Below, in pieces: positions 14,363-23,011 of a stretch of 64,000 nucleotides of DNA; position 1 is the first letter of the stretch, and each line of letters starts with the position of its first letter. Made by a program: the position numbers and the translations under genes. A model generated the notes under the pieces. The model searched no databases. It was not told the DNA's origin and saw nothing but the letters and a program-made list of their open reading frames with translations. This DNA is from Gammaproteobacteria bacterium (GTDB lineage Bacteria; Pseudomonadota; Gammaproteobacteria; JASBUN01). The DNA is taken from NCBI GenBank assembly GCA_030147845.1, contig JASBUN010000022.1:102396-166395 (forward strand), written 5' to 3'.

Positions 14363-15745
14363 TCAGCCCAAACGTCCAAGCAGTGGTTGGGCGGCCAAGC
14401 CGATCGCCAGCGTCAGCAGCAGCGCGATCAGCCAGACTGCGGTCGTCAGCGACGCGGCCGGTGATGACCCGGATGTCGGCGCGACTGCCGTTTCGGCACG
14501 TTGGTACATCGGCACGACGATGCGCAGATAGACGGCTAATGCGAGCACGCTATTGATGATGGCGACCACCGCCAGCGCGGTGAAGTGGGCGTCGATGGCG
14601 GCACCGAATAACAAAAATTTGCCAACGAAGCCGGCCAGCGGTGGGATACCGACCAGCGATAGCAGAAATACGACCATGGCGACGCCTTTGAGCGGTGCGC
14701 TGCGACCGACACCACGGTAGGTATGCAGCGTTCGGCCGGTGGTCGCGACCACGGCGAACGCGCCGATATTCATGGCCGCGTAGGCGGCAGCGAACACGAT
14801 CAGCGATGGCAGCGCCAGCGGACTGCGTCCGAGCGCGACGATAGCGAGCAAAAAATAGCCGGACTGAGCGATCGATGAATAGGCCAACAGTCGTATCACA
14901 TCATTTTGTACCAATGCGGCCAGGTATGCGTAGGTCATGGTCAAAATCGACAGGCCGGCAATGATGGCCGGCCAAGCGCTGGCCATCGGCACATCCCTCA
15001 ACACCTGCGCGAGCGCAAAGATAGCACCGATTTTGGTGACTACCGACAGATAGGCCGCTACCGACACTGGCGCGCCCTGGTAAGCATCGGGCGCCCAAAA
15101 ATGGAACGGCACCAGCGACGCTTTATAACCGAGGCCGACGATGACCGCCACCAAACCGACTGCGGTCGCCAGCGAGGTCGGGTCGAGACGCGCCAAATCA
15201 TTGAGGAAAGTCGAACCGGTCGCGCCAAACCAATAGGTGAGGCCGAAGATCATGATGGCGCCGCTGACCGACCCGAACACGAACAATTTCATAGCGCCTT
15301 CGGTGGCGGCATCATTACGCGGATAGGCGACCAGCGCCACCGCACCGAGCGTCGATAGCAGCACGCCCAGGACCAGGAACAGCATGTCGCCGGCGGCGGC
15401 CAGCAATAACGCGCCCAAGGTGGTGAAGCTGATCAGACTATAGAACGTGCCTTCGCGATCGCTGTGGCGCAGTTCAGCGCGTGCCAATAATACGCATAAC
15501 GCGCTCGCCGGCAGCAAAACCAGCTTTGACCAGACACTCAGCGTATCGATCCGATAGGTCGCGCTGAATGCGGTTGCATGCATACCGATAAAGGCAAAGC
15601 TTTGTGTAGCGGCGAGTAACAGTCCAGCCAGCGTCACCAGCAGCGCCAGCCGCGGCGAACGCAACATTTCTGCGATCAAAGCGCCGACGGCGGCCAGCAG
15701 AACGATGATCTCGGGCAATATCAGATAGAGGTCATGCGCCGTCAC
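14363..15745 (-). CDS. NuoN-like proton channel subunit of the second complex I-like operon
   Basis: A 460-residue multi-span antiporter-like protein homologous to NuoN. It keeps the transmembrane lysine in the YKASLVPFHFWAPDAYQGAP segment and a later lysine in SVVTKIGAIF. Compared with the conventional NuoN at 49.7 kb, the glutamate of the GLELLSLSLYA motif is replaced by leucine (GVLLSTLGAVA), so half of the usual Glu/Lys pair is missing. It is the last gene of the eight-gene operon and overlaps the nuoM-like gene by four bases. It is likely part of a membrane arm; whether it still moves protons is uncertain. Confidence 0.85.
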   Translation of the reverse strand: MTAHDLYLILPEIIVLLAAVGALIAEMLRSPRLALLVTLAGLLLAATQSFAFIGMHATAFSATYRIDTLSVWSKLVLLPASALCVLLARAELRHSDREGTFYSLISFTTLGALLLAAAGDMLFLVLGVLLSTLGAVALVAYPRNDAATEGAMKLFVFGSVSGAIMIFGLTYWFGATGSTFLNDLARLDPTSLATAVGLVAVIVGLGYKASLVPFHFWAPDAYQGAPVSVAAYLSVVTKIGAIFALAQVLRDVPMASAWPAIIAGLSILTMTYAYLAALVQNDVIRLLAYSSIAQSGYFLLAIVALGRSPLALPSLIVFAAAYAAMNIGAFAVVATTGRTLHTYRGVGRSAPLKGVAMVVFLLSLVGIPPLAGFVGKFLLFGAAIDAHFTALAVVAIINSVLALAVYLRIVVPMYQRAETAVAPTSGSSPAASLTTAVWLIALLLTLAIGLAAQPLLGRLG

Positions 15746-17211
15746 GGCTGCAGCGCCATTGTGGTGAGATGGATCACGTTCAACAACCAGGCCGGCGCAA
15801 TACCGACCAGCACCGTCAAAATCAGCAGCGGGCCTATGGTGAGTAGCTCGCTCGTGCGCAGGTCACGCAGGCCGCGCCACTGCGCCGGGGTCTCGCCCAG
15901 AAACGCTTGGCCGATGGCTTTCAGATACAGGCCGGCCGTAATCACGATGCCGATGATCATGACCACTGCGCCCGGCTCGACGCGTAATGTGGCGAGAAAA
16001 ATCTGGAATTCGGCCGGAAAGTGCGCTAATCCGGGCAAGCCGAGTGAAGCGAAGGCGGCGATCACGAACGACCAGCCGAGCACCGGCACGACACGCAACA
16101 AGCCGCCAAGCTTGCCGAGTTCACGTGTGTCGGTGCGATCTTGAAGCATTCCGACCAGGAAGAACAGCGCGCCGGTCACCAGTCCATGGCTGATCATTTG
16201 CAGTACGGCGCCGTCCAGCGCCAGCGCGCGCAGCCGGGGGTTGAGCGCCAGTGAGGCGATGGCGACGGCGGCGATGATATAGCCCATATGATTGATCGAA
16301 GTGTAGGCGATCAGGCGTTTGAGATCGGTTTGGCCAAGCGCGGCAAAGGCGCCGTAGATGGCGCTGAACACACCGAATATGAGCACCACCACGGCGGCGT
16401 CATGGAAGGCCACAGGCGTCATTTGCAAGGCGAAGCGAATCAATCCATAGGTGCCGAATTTCAGCATTACGCCGGCTAGCAGGACGCTGCCGGCGGCTGG
16501 TGCTTGCACGTGCGCTGCCGGTAACCATGTGTGTAACGGAAACACGGGGGTTTTGACCGCGAACGTTATCAGCATGGCGATCATGGCTAACATCGCCGCC
16601 GTGCCGGCCAGTGGTGGATGAGCGATCCAGGTGCGCATGTCGAACGTATGCGGCGTACTGCCGAGATAGAGGCCGAGTATGGCCAGCAGTAGTGGCAAAC
16701 TGCCGAGCAGCGTATAGAGAAAAAACATTAATGCGGCGCGACGCCGGTCTTCGTGCCCCCAACCGGCAATCATGAAATACATCGATACCAGCGATAGTTC
16801 GAAAAAGACGTAGAACAAAATCGCGTCCAGGGCGGTGAACACACCGATCGATGCGGTCTCGAGCAATAAGGCGAGGACGACGAAGGCGTGCGCGCGCTGC
16901 TTGAGTTTGGTGGAGTAGATAAAGGTCAGCAAGAACAGCAGCGCGGTCAACAGCACCAGCGGCAAGCTGATGCCGTCTACGCCGACGCGATAGGCGGCGC
17001 CGATCGAGGGCATCCAGGTGAAGTGCTCCAATTGCGAAAATCCGCCCGCTTGCACACCTCGCGACCACATCCACAAGGCTCCGCCCAAGGTCAGCGCACT
17101 GGTGATGAGTGCGATCGTATGTGCGACGCGCGCCGGCGCCGAGCGTGATAACAGAACCAGAACGGCGCCGACCAGCGGCAGGAATAATGTGATCGTCACT
17201 AGGGGAAACAC
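15742..17211 (-). CDS. NuoM-like proton channel subunit of the second complex I-like operon
   Basis: NuoM homologue of 489 residues with about 14 predicted membrane spans. The channel glutamate in FYVFFELSLVSMYF and the lysine in VKTPVFPLHTWLP are kept, as is a distal lysine in GVMLKFGTYGLIRF, so a working half-channel is plausible. GTG 17211 is chosen because AAAGGAG lies just upstream and follows directly on the nuoL-like stop; the open frame extends further upstream, but only inside nuoL. It overlaps the nuoN-like gene by four bases. Confidence 0.88.
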   Translation of the reverse strand: MFPLVTITLFLPLVGAVLVLLSRSAPARVAHTIALITSALTLGGALWMWSRGVQAGGFSQLEHFTWMPSIGAAYRVGVDGISLPLVLLTALLFLLTFIYSTKLKQRAHAFVVLALLLETASIGVFTALDAILFYVFFELSLVSMYFMIAGWGHEDRRRAALMFFLYTLLGSLPLLLAILGLYLGSTPHTFDMRTWIAHPPLAGTAAMLAMIAMLITFAVKTPVFPLHTWLPAAHVQAPAAGSVLLAGVMLKFGTYGLIRFALQMTPVAFHDAAVVVLIFGVFSAIYGAFAALGQTDLKRLIAYTSINHMGYIIAAVAIASLALNPRLRALALDGAVLQMISHGLVTGALFFLVGMLQDRTDTRELGKLGGLLRVVPVLGWSFVIAAFASLGLPGLAHFPAEFQIFLATLRVEPGAVVMIIGIVITAGLYLKAIGQAFLGETPAQWRGLRDLRTSELLTIGPLLILTVLVGIAPAWLLNVIHLTTMALQP

Positions 17212-22633: not shown

Positions 22634-23011
22634 TCATTGTCTCCGCAACGCGCCCTGACTCCAGCCGTACAATAGCCCCAGGAACAGAATGCCGAGGAAG
22701 ACGCCCATGTCGAGCAGCGCGACCACGCCTTCCTGCTTGTAGACCACGGCCCACGGATACATGAACGCCATTTCCATGTCGAAGGCCAAAAACAGGAGTG
22801 CATAGCCGAGATAGCGCGCGTGGTAGCGAACCCACACCGGATCGCGTGACATTTGCCCGGCGCTGGCCGGCACGTCCTTGCCCGGTTCCGGCCGCGTGCG
22901 GCCGATGGCGCGCGCAAATCCGTATAGGCCGGCGACGACGCCGACGCAAGCCAGCGACAGAATCAGCAGTACGATGCCGTTATCGGAGGTGGTCATGGTT
23001 GGATGCTTCAT
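22634..23011 (-). CDS. NuoA-like subunit of the second complex I-like operon
   Basis: Three-span NuoA homologue of about 125 residues. The loop and second helix keep the conserved acidic pair in FLAFDMEMAFMYPWAV, and the C-terminus resembles conventional NuoA. It is the first gene of the eight-gene operon; the fused NuoB/D-like frame begins with GTG immediately after its TGA. The start is uncertain: ATG 23011 has an AGGA very close, ATG 22996 is also possible, and the open frame reaches 23083. Confidence 0.87.
   Translation of the reverse strand: MKHPTMTTSDNGIVLLILSLACVGVVAGLYGFARAIGRTRPEPGKDVPASAGQMSRDPVWVRYHARYLGYALLFLAFDMEMAFMYPWAVVYKQEGVVALLDMGVFLGILFLGLLYGWSQGALRRQ

Follow-up and report, generated by a model that had tools for sequence, protein, structure and literature searches.

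An eight-gene complex I-like operon with a metal-binding B/D fusion protein and methionine-rich membrane subunits: a possible proton-driven Cu(I) exporter

The eight-gene operon and its setting

A stretch of 64,000 nucleotides from a gammaproteobacterial genome (GenBank assembly GCA_030147845.1, contig JASBUN010000022.1, positions 102,396 to 166,395), the whole of which is referred to here as the window, contains at positions 14363-23011 an operon of eight minus-strand open reading frames, all open and closely packed in the order A-BD-H-J-K-L-M-N, and every one of the eight products is a homologue of a complex I subunit according to Pfam and NCBIfam profiles. Four-base overlaps link the genes at five of the seven junctions (BD/H, H/J, J/K, K/L and M/N, with the start codons as chosen here), while A and BD abut and L and M are separated by a 14-base gap. 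A preliminary description of this DNA had reported such an operon, including its NuoB/NuoD-like fusion and the four-base overlap of most of its genes, and this observation was confirmed. The genes are as follows:

22634..23011, minus strand: NuoA-like, 125 aa (Pfam PF00507, 8e-24; aligned with the canonical NuoA of the window and 36 relatives)
20819..22633, minus strand: BD fusion protein, 604 aa (NuoB-like part, heavy-metal-binding domain, His/Met-rich linker and NuoD-like part)
19926..20822, minus strand: NuoH-like, 298 aa (PF00146, 1e-56; alignment with E. coli NuoH and family alignment)
19348..19929, minus strand: NuoJ-like, 193 aa, with a methionine-rich helix 3 (PF00499, 2e-19)
19040..19351, minus strand: NuoK-like, 103 aa (PF00420, 1e-18)
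17226..19043, minus strand: NuoL-like antiporter subunit, 605 aa (PF00361, 3e-56)
15742..17211, minus strand: NuoM-like antiporter subunit, 489 aa (PF00361, 7e-67; TIGR01972 above its cut-off)
14363..15745, minus strand: NuoN-like antiporter subunit, 460 aa (PF00361, 5e-50)

No NuoC, E, F, G or I homologue was found among the eight operon products by Pfam, so the absence of these subunits noted in the preliminary description holds for the eight genes, and it is qualified by a complete canonical nuoA-N operon on the plus strand of the same window (36599-51149), 13.6 kb away, in which the C, E, F, G, I input module is present. Since this canonical operon exists, the cell does not lack complex I, and the eight-gene operon represents an additional system. 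Searches of the surrounding DNA gave no sigma-70 promoter in 22950-23520, no Rfam match in 14000-24000 and no CueR-type box upstream of the operon, the whole window holding two matches to that box against 1.26 expected.

The BD fusion protein as a metal-binding head

The most informative part of the operon, missing from the preliminary description, is a heavy-metal-binding domain (HMBD) located inside the BD fusion, which is organized from the N-terminus as follows:

22214..22633, minus strand: NuoB-like N-terminal part, residues 1-140 (NCBIfam NuoB at residues 42-91, 2.5e-5)
22121..22198, minus strand: HMBD, residues 146-171, CPMH...CPRCGM (PF19335, 1.4e-12)
21845..22120, minus strand: His/Met-rich linker of the GMDHAAM type, residues 172-263 (from the sequence)
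20819..21844, minus strand: NuoD-like C-terminal part, residues 264-604 (PF00346, 1e-18; motif counts)

The Pfam NuoB match of this protein is below threshold (0.07). An AlphaFold model based on 30 sequences reached a mean predicted local distance difference test score (pLDDT) of 74.5 and resembles solved NuoD-type chains, with template modelling scores by target of 0.52-0.71 among the 50 matches listed, and the linker is mostly predicted to be disordered (pLDDT <50 over residues 177-300).

At the HMBD stretch, the family profile hits copper ATPases of known structure, namely 8ovl (3e-9) and 3rfu (2e-8), the latter being LpCopA. Scoring of 7993 candidates yielded 965 BD homologues at E <= 1e-3, and each of the best 120 carries between 1 and 11 copies of the HMBD (120/120), a list that leans toward HMBD-bearing proteins because the BD query itself held one. 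The family can be divided into three subfamilies (I, II and III), of which subfamily II possesses, in the two sequences read, a Met-rich segment of the form MMGGxPYGRPMAM at the B/D junction instead of the HMBD, and subfamily III possesses His/Met segments there, such as MDHGxMDHG or GEH repeats (GEHGEH). Each of the three subfamilies thus shows, at the level of sequence, an insertion of a metal-binding type at the B/D junction.

Loss of redox and quinone features and retention of the proton path

The features that belong to electron transfer in complex I have largely disappeared from this system. The cysteine pair (CC) of the B part occurs in none of the best 120 BD homologues listed, the best cysteine column reaching 18/120, and in none of 11 subfamily II and III proteins read, which precludes the usual assembly of cluster N2. 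Where NuoD of complex I has GPQHPAAHG, the window protein has GPLFPGLPGG; the form GPxxPGL is shared by 117 of the 120 listed D parts, no histidine is present in the 119 motifs matched at this position, and the single unmatched homologue reads PYGPFFPGLPGG. The family alignment reveals no GPN loop in the NuoH-like protein, in which T190 and Q192, aligned with Glu216 and Glu218 of E. coli, replace the glutamates of the acidic loop, with Asp remaining at the first of these positions in 5 of 26 subfamily I members. The ECG quinone loop of NuoA is likewise gone, as seen in the alignment rows shown. The two nickel CxxC motifs of group 4 [NiFe] hydrogenases were not found either, a CxxC being present in the D part of just 2 of the 120 listed homologues.

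The residues of the proton path, by contrast with these losses, are kept. The L subunit retains Glu132, Lys210, Lys284, Lys321 and Lys376 in all three subfamilies; M retains Glu138 (replaced by Asp in subfamilies II and III), Lys220, Lys251 and Glu401; and N retains Lys153, Lys208 (in 9/11 members of II and III), Lys238 and Lys376. Glu37 and Glu75 (with one Asp) of K, as well as Asp78 (with one Glu) and Glu80 of A, are conserved, and the characteristic residues of the antiporter-like subunits and of the E-channel of complex I are accordingly found in subfamilies I, II and III with few exceptions. These results bear out the preliminary description, which had named Glu132 and Lys210 of L and Glu37 and Glu75 of K and had proposed an ion-moving membrane arm without an electron input. 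Outside the window, the same genome carries further Proton_antipo_M genes at G000:C52:56663-61177, C16:315415-316287 and C58:4097-4750.

Methionines gained in J, K and A

The membrane subunits J, K and A have gained methionines, above all in helix 3 of J, the gating helix of complex I:

19657..19749, minus strand: Met-rich stretch of J, residues 61-91, MMMATEMSIMAIFMVMFMMDPGGLGEMDMSH (family alignment)

Residue counts were made on 37 family members, excluding the interrupted or partly annotated copies L075 and L076, and on 31 canonical NuoJ/K pairs, comprising the 30 best matches among 60 genomes and the window's own; one of these (L094) is the window's own canonical gene fetched again, which leaves 30 distinct controls. 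Met29, 62, 63, 67, 70, 74, 78, 79, 89 and 142, together with Glu66 and His91, are present in 37/37 family members and in 0/31 canonical NuoJ, and Met87 is present in 37/37 and 4/31, respectively. In the alignment with E. coli NuoJ, Met63 corresponds to Tyr59, and Glu66 is a buried glutamate within the methionine-rich helix. The same methionine positions, Glu66 and His91 are found in 119-120 of the 120 homologues of the window J listed out of 1162, and in 119-120 of the 120 homologues of an Arthrobacter J listed out of 1597, where position 79 aligns to Gly. The K subunit contributes Met31 and Met72 (37/37 versus 0/31) and Met76 (36/37 versus 0/31), and the A subunit contributes Met81 and Met84 beside its acidic pair (37/37, compared with one canonical NuoA only).

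Distribution, subfamilies and origin

The eight genes are found in one order and on one strand at 35 of 39 related loci, a conservation beyond chance; three of the remaining four loci reach a contig end, and in the fourth (L075) the best BD match is a copper-ATPase fragment. No further gene is conserved in the operon across the 39 loci. Among 369 genomes of the class, 20 were matched at E <= 1e-8, 13 of which (the window's included) exceeded 100 bits and belong to the family, the other matches being a distant headless form (G026, G084) or weaker and hydrogenase-like (including G075 and G330). Among 299 genomes of the phylum, five were matched and three belong to the family, the own genome included. 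The neighbourhood survey of these matches leaves out G075, G330 and G530. Weaker matches at L052-L056 have hydrogenase-like neighbours (ordinary NuoD, NuoB and NuoL matches) and were set apart, and Halorussus (L079) was left out as an isolated NuoH-like gene only.

Plasmid carriers of subfamily I include Sulfitobacter, Paracoccus, Roseovarius, Thioclava, Nitratireductor and Rubrobacter; subfamily II, the form without an HMBD, occurs in Halomonadaceae plasmids and in G026; and subfamily III is another form, located on actinobacterial plasmids. A tree of J and K separates the 37 members from the 31 canonical pairs with 99% support, and the same result was obtained after removal of 17 Met-rich columns, which points to a single origin of the members, apart from ordinary nuo. 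Support is 94% for subfamily I, 100% for III and 99-100% for II and III together, while the two members of II do not form a clade.

Several further observations were made at individual loci. Six alphaproteobacterial plasmids (L058, L064, L067, L077, L078 and L080) carry a DUF6629 gene upstream of NuoA, and L067, L077 and L080 additionally carry a separate short "proton-conducting transporter" gene and a sigma factor gene. At the subfamily II locus of G026 (L051:9780-10949, 16123-16830), the C-terminus of J is a His/Met-rich tail, and N is followed after about 0.35 kb by a DUF305 gene (family match). In G084 (L050:411-3872), a distant BD-like gene lies beside copper-ATPase-like and cupredoxin-like genes named by eye, with no NuoH adjoining. 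The plasmid copies of Pseudarthrobacter, Ornithinimicrobium and Vreelandella sulfidaeris (L074, L075 and L076) look interrupted or partly annotated, with an IS3 transposase within BD in Pseudarthrobacter. Genes of 797-800 aa are present near N in five chromosomal loci (L039, L040, L042, L038 and L044), those of L038 and L040 being glucodextranase/GH15 by Pfam. The flanks of the chromosomal copies, which encode glucodextranase, glucokinase, flavin oxidoreductases, a cis/trans isomerase, a molybdopterin/aminotransferase protein and an ATP-grasp protein, gave no functional lead.

Copper-gene context on plasmids

Genes for multicopper oxidases, DUF305 proteins, CopB/CopC/CopD, CusA/CzcA, heavy-metal ATPases or CsoR-type regulators appear around the operon in the plasmid records. 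The operon of Rubrobacter tropicus is preceded on the same strand by genes for a copper ATPase, a CsoR-type regulator and a copper-binding protein. Proximity was evaluated with four markers (Cu-oxidase_3, DUF305, the CsoR family and copper ATPase) against random placement on the same plasmids, with markers of E >1e-10 and copper-ATPase matches under the curated cut-off excluded. The evaluation covers plasmids only, two chromosomes picked for a nearby marker having been excluded; it includes all of 13 plasmid records except an Azospirillum hydrogenase match, two Halomonadaceae plasmids, and 10 of 15 actinobacterial plasmids, omitting three from M. avium, one from M. intracellulare and one from R. 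oxybenzonivorans. For W19 and W20, the ends of the operon are estimates made by hand.

A marker lies within 10 kb of the operon in 18 of 24 plasmids, where 8.75 would be expected (P 3e-5), and within 5 kb in 13 of 24, where 6.70 would be expected (P 4e-3). For a set of 16 plasmids thinned by hand, according to a judgement of lineage, the corresponding values are 12/16 against 5.73 (P 8e-4) and 9/16 against 4.41 (P 0.01); six of the eight plasmids removed have a marker within 10 kb and two do not.

Proposed function and alternative explanations

A role of the operon in copper handling is likely on these grounds, and the metal of the head is most likely copper, as suggested by the HMBD match to copper ATPases, the plasmid context and the Met-rich helix. 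Copper involvement can be regarded as well supported, whereas transport, its direction and its coupling to protons are inferred. The interpretation preferred here, with a probability of roughly 0.5, is that the eight genes encode a complex I-derived membrane complex that may use the proton gradient to expel Cu(I) from the cytoplasm. The HMBDs and the His/Met segments would bind Cu(I) on the cytoplasmic side and deliver it to the cavity between BD and H that once took quinone. Its exit route would follow the methionines of J, K and A, in the region of the E-channel of complex I, and protons entering through L, M and N would drive the metal outward. Export rather than import is suggested by the resistance-gene context. 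A more complete version of this proposal, for which the odds fall slightly short of even, describes a Cu(I)/H+ exchanger of complex I architecture, in which up to 11 HMBDs load copper into the old quinone cavity, the gating helix of J serves as a methionine ladder for Cu(I) and the three antiporter subunits supply the proton drive. Having originated a single time, this exchanger would have spread through Proteobacteria and Actinobacteria, in part on plasmids, and would be hidden as NADH dehydrogenase in databases.

Several points weigh against copper export. The window's own operon lies among genes identified by eye as biosynthetic, with no copper genes adjoining, and among 15 chromosomal genomes a marker within 15 kb was seen in only three (G079, G585 and G026), several contigs being short and the count leaving out G178, which is split over contigs, and G084. 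Because the markers are common on these plasmids, the enrichment is just about two-fold, and neither CsoR-family nor DUF305 proteins are tied strictly to copper. Taken by itself, multicopper oxidase shows no enrichment within 5 kb (4/18 against 3.26 expected), and six of the 24 plasmids lack any marker within 15 kb (Nitratireductor, Thioclava, P. sediminicola, Gordonia, R. pyridinivorans and Pseudarthrobacter), although the Nitratireductor record nonetheless annotates a multicopper oxidase and CopD nearby. The controls, MerA (0/5 within 10 kb, 0.70 expected) and Acr3 (0/6, 0.79 expected; 1/6 at 15 kb), say little, since so few were expected. With respect to J, Met63, 67, 70, 74 and 78 point to the same side of the helix (resultant 0.88, reached by 0.2% of random sets), but this subset was picked post hoc; the seven conserved methionines of the helix together give 0.45, or 0.28 with Met76. 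The register of this helix relative to canonical NuoJ shifts slightly between alignments, the structure model of J has low confidence (pLDDT 59) and was not used, and the methionines might instead be structural or serve Ag(I).

Two alternatives that retain copper are both unlikely, and to a similar degree. According to the first, Cu(I)/Cu(II) chemistry at the head would drive the outward pumping of H+ or Na+, a view that accords with a copper-type head on a proton arm and with the copper-gene context, and that Eddie et al. (PMC8233155) put forward for Marinobacter in the relevant passages of their paper, where copper redox is proposed as an energy source. Such a pump is difficult to reconcile with the absence of any known electron acceptor site, the N2 cysteines, quinone histidines, GPN and ECG loops all being gone, and with the lack of a further conserved gene in the operon; moreover, the methionines run through the membrane part, which fits an ion path better than a redox centre. 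According to the second, Cu(I) bound at the head would gate the antiporter arm, adjusting pH or membrane potential under copper stress, and copper itself would not be moved. The variable number of HMBDs (1-11) would suit a load sensor and the proton path is intact, but this idea leaves unexplained why conservation is stricter for the methionines of J and K (36-37 of 37) than for a head that varies between subfamilies.

A pump for adaptation to salt or pH, in the form of a headless NDH-1 moving Na+ or H+ in marine organisms, appears less probable again. It is the published reading of partial nuo operons in Salinispora, Kocuria and Streptomyces, which the passages concerned interpret as marine or osmotic adaptation (PMC3314556, PMC6002675, PMC6676996); this treatment of the actinobacterial version as a salt or proton pump counts against copper export, and many plasmid carriers are marine. 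It leaves the HMBD and His/Met insertions, the J methionines and the proximity of copper genes unaccounted for, and PMC6676996 itself mentions, in the part cited here, that the operon occurs in a strain from mine fluids rich in copper. Inorganic carbon uptake or CO2 hydration, by analogy with cyanobacterial NDH-1MS and DAB, was dropped as very improbable, for although the superfamily is the same and L matches DabB2 (2e-28, far weaker than its match to NuoL chains), no carbonic-anhydrase-like, CupA/CupB-type or DabA protein is encoded among the eight genes (Pfam; flanks not searched) and the plasmid context is one of copper. The preliminary description, which had envisaged a reaction at a metal site by analogy with complex I-derived machines bearing new heads and had named CO2 among the phenotypes to look for, is partly supported as an interpretation: the metal stands, sharpened to most likely copper by the HMBD, the plasmid context and the Met-rich helix, and CO2 finds no support in the eight genes.

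If the proposed Cu(I) export is correct, transition-metal transport would here, to our knowledge, be met for the first time in a relative of complex I, and the enzyme family would have acquired a new task. It would offer a natural experiment on the coupling of the cavity to the proton channels, with the driver changed from quinone to metal, the proton path kept and the J helix rewritten. Annotations such as "partial NADH dehydrogenase" or "marine adaptation genes" would be corrected, and a proton-driven route would be added to the known copper-resistance systems.

Comparison with known systems

Respiratory complex I (NDH-1, NuoA-N) shares with the eight-gene system homologous A, H, J, K, L, M and N subunits, B and D parts and the same proton-path Glu and Lys residues; the operon differs in having no C, E, F, G or I, in the fusion of B and D around metal-binding insertions, in the absence of N2 cysteines and quinone histidines, and in the methionine-rich helix 3 of J. 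Complex I-type antiporter subunits also serve in non-redox roles in the Mrp cation/proton antiporter and the DAB carbon transporter, and the window L matches proteins of both. We know of neither Mrp nor DAB with NuoA/H plus a B/D head bearing metal-binding domains, and no MrpA-G set was found among the eight products, the best family matches of which are NuoA/H/J/K/L/M/N and the B/D fusion.

Parts of the system are already in print, so the earlier statement that no described system has this composition was too strong. The "partial nuo-operon" of marine actinomycetes, with the order nuoA, hypothetical protein, nuoHJKLMN (PMC6676996), agrees in gene order as compared by description and is probably subfamily III; in the relevant passages of that paper, the hypothetical protein is unnamed and no copper role is given. 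A published system with the same set is what the preliminary description had named as refuting it, and much the same set has indeed been published, though its function was not worked out there. Eddie et al. 2021 (PMC8233155) report, in the passages concerned, a nuo-like cassette (ACP86_11540-11570) inside the copper operon of Marinobacter atlanticus, co-expressed with copper-resistance genes; it is given there as nuoADHJKL and one hypothetical gene, without M and N, and that account describes neither the head nor the methionine motif. Part of PMC12668529 deals with Acidithiobacillus nuo genes under copper stress, nuoI included, and a term search of the main text of a 2025 complex I survey (PMC12361115) found the words copper and heavy metal absent. 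The titles and abstracts that searches of the open-access literature brought up contained no description of such a B/D head or of the NuoJ methionines.

The P1B copper ATPase (3rfu) has the HMBD in common with the eight-gene system and is often found in the same genomic neighbourhood. The two differ in that no ATPase domain is present among the eight proteins (Pfam), for which protons are the likely source of energy.

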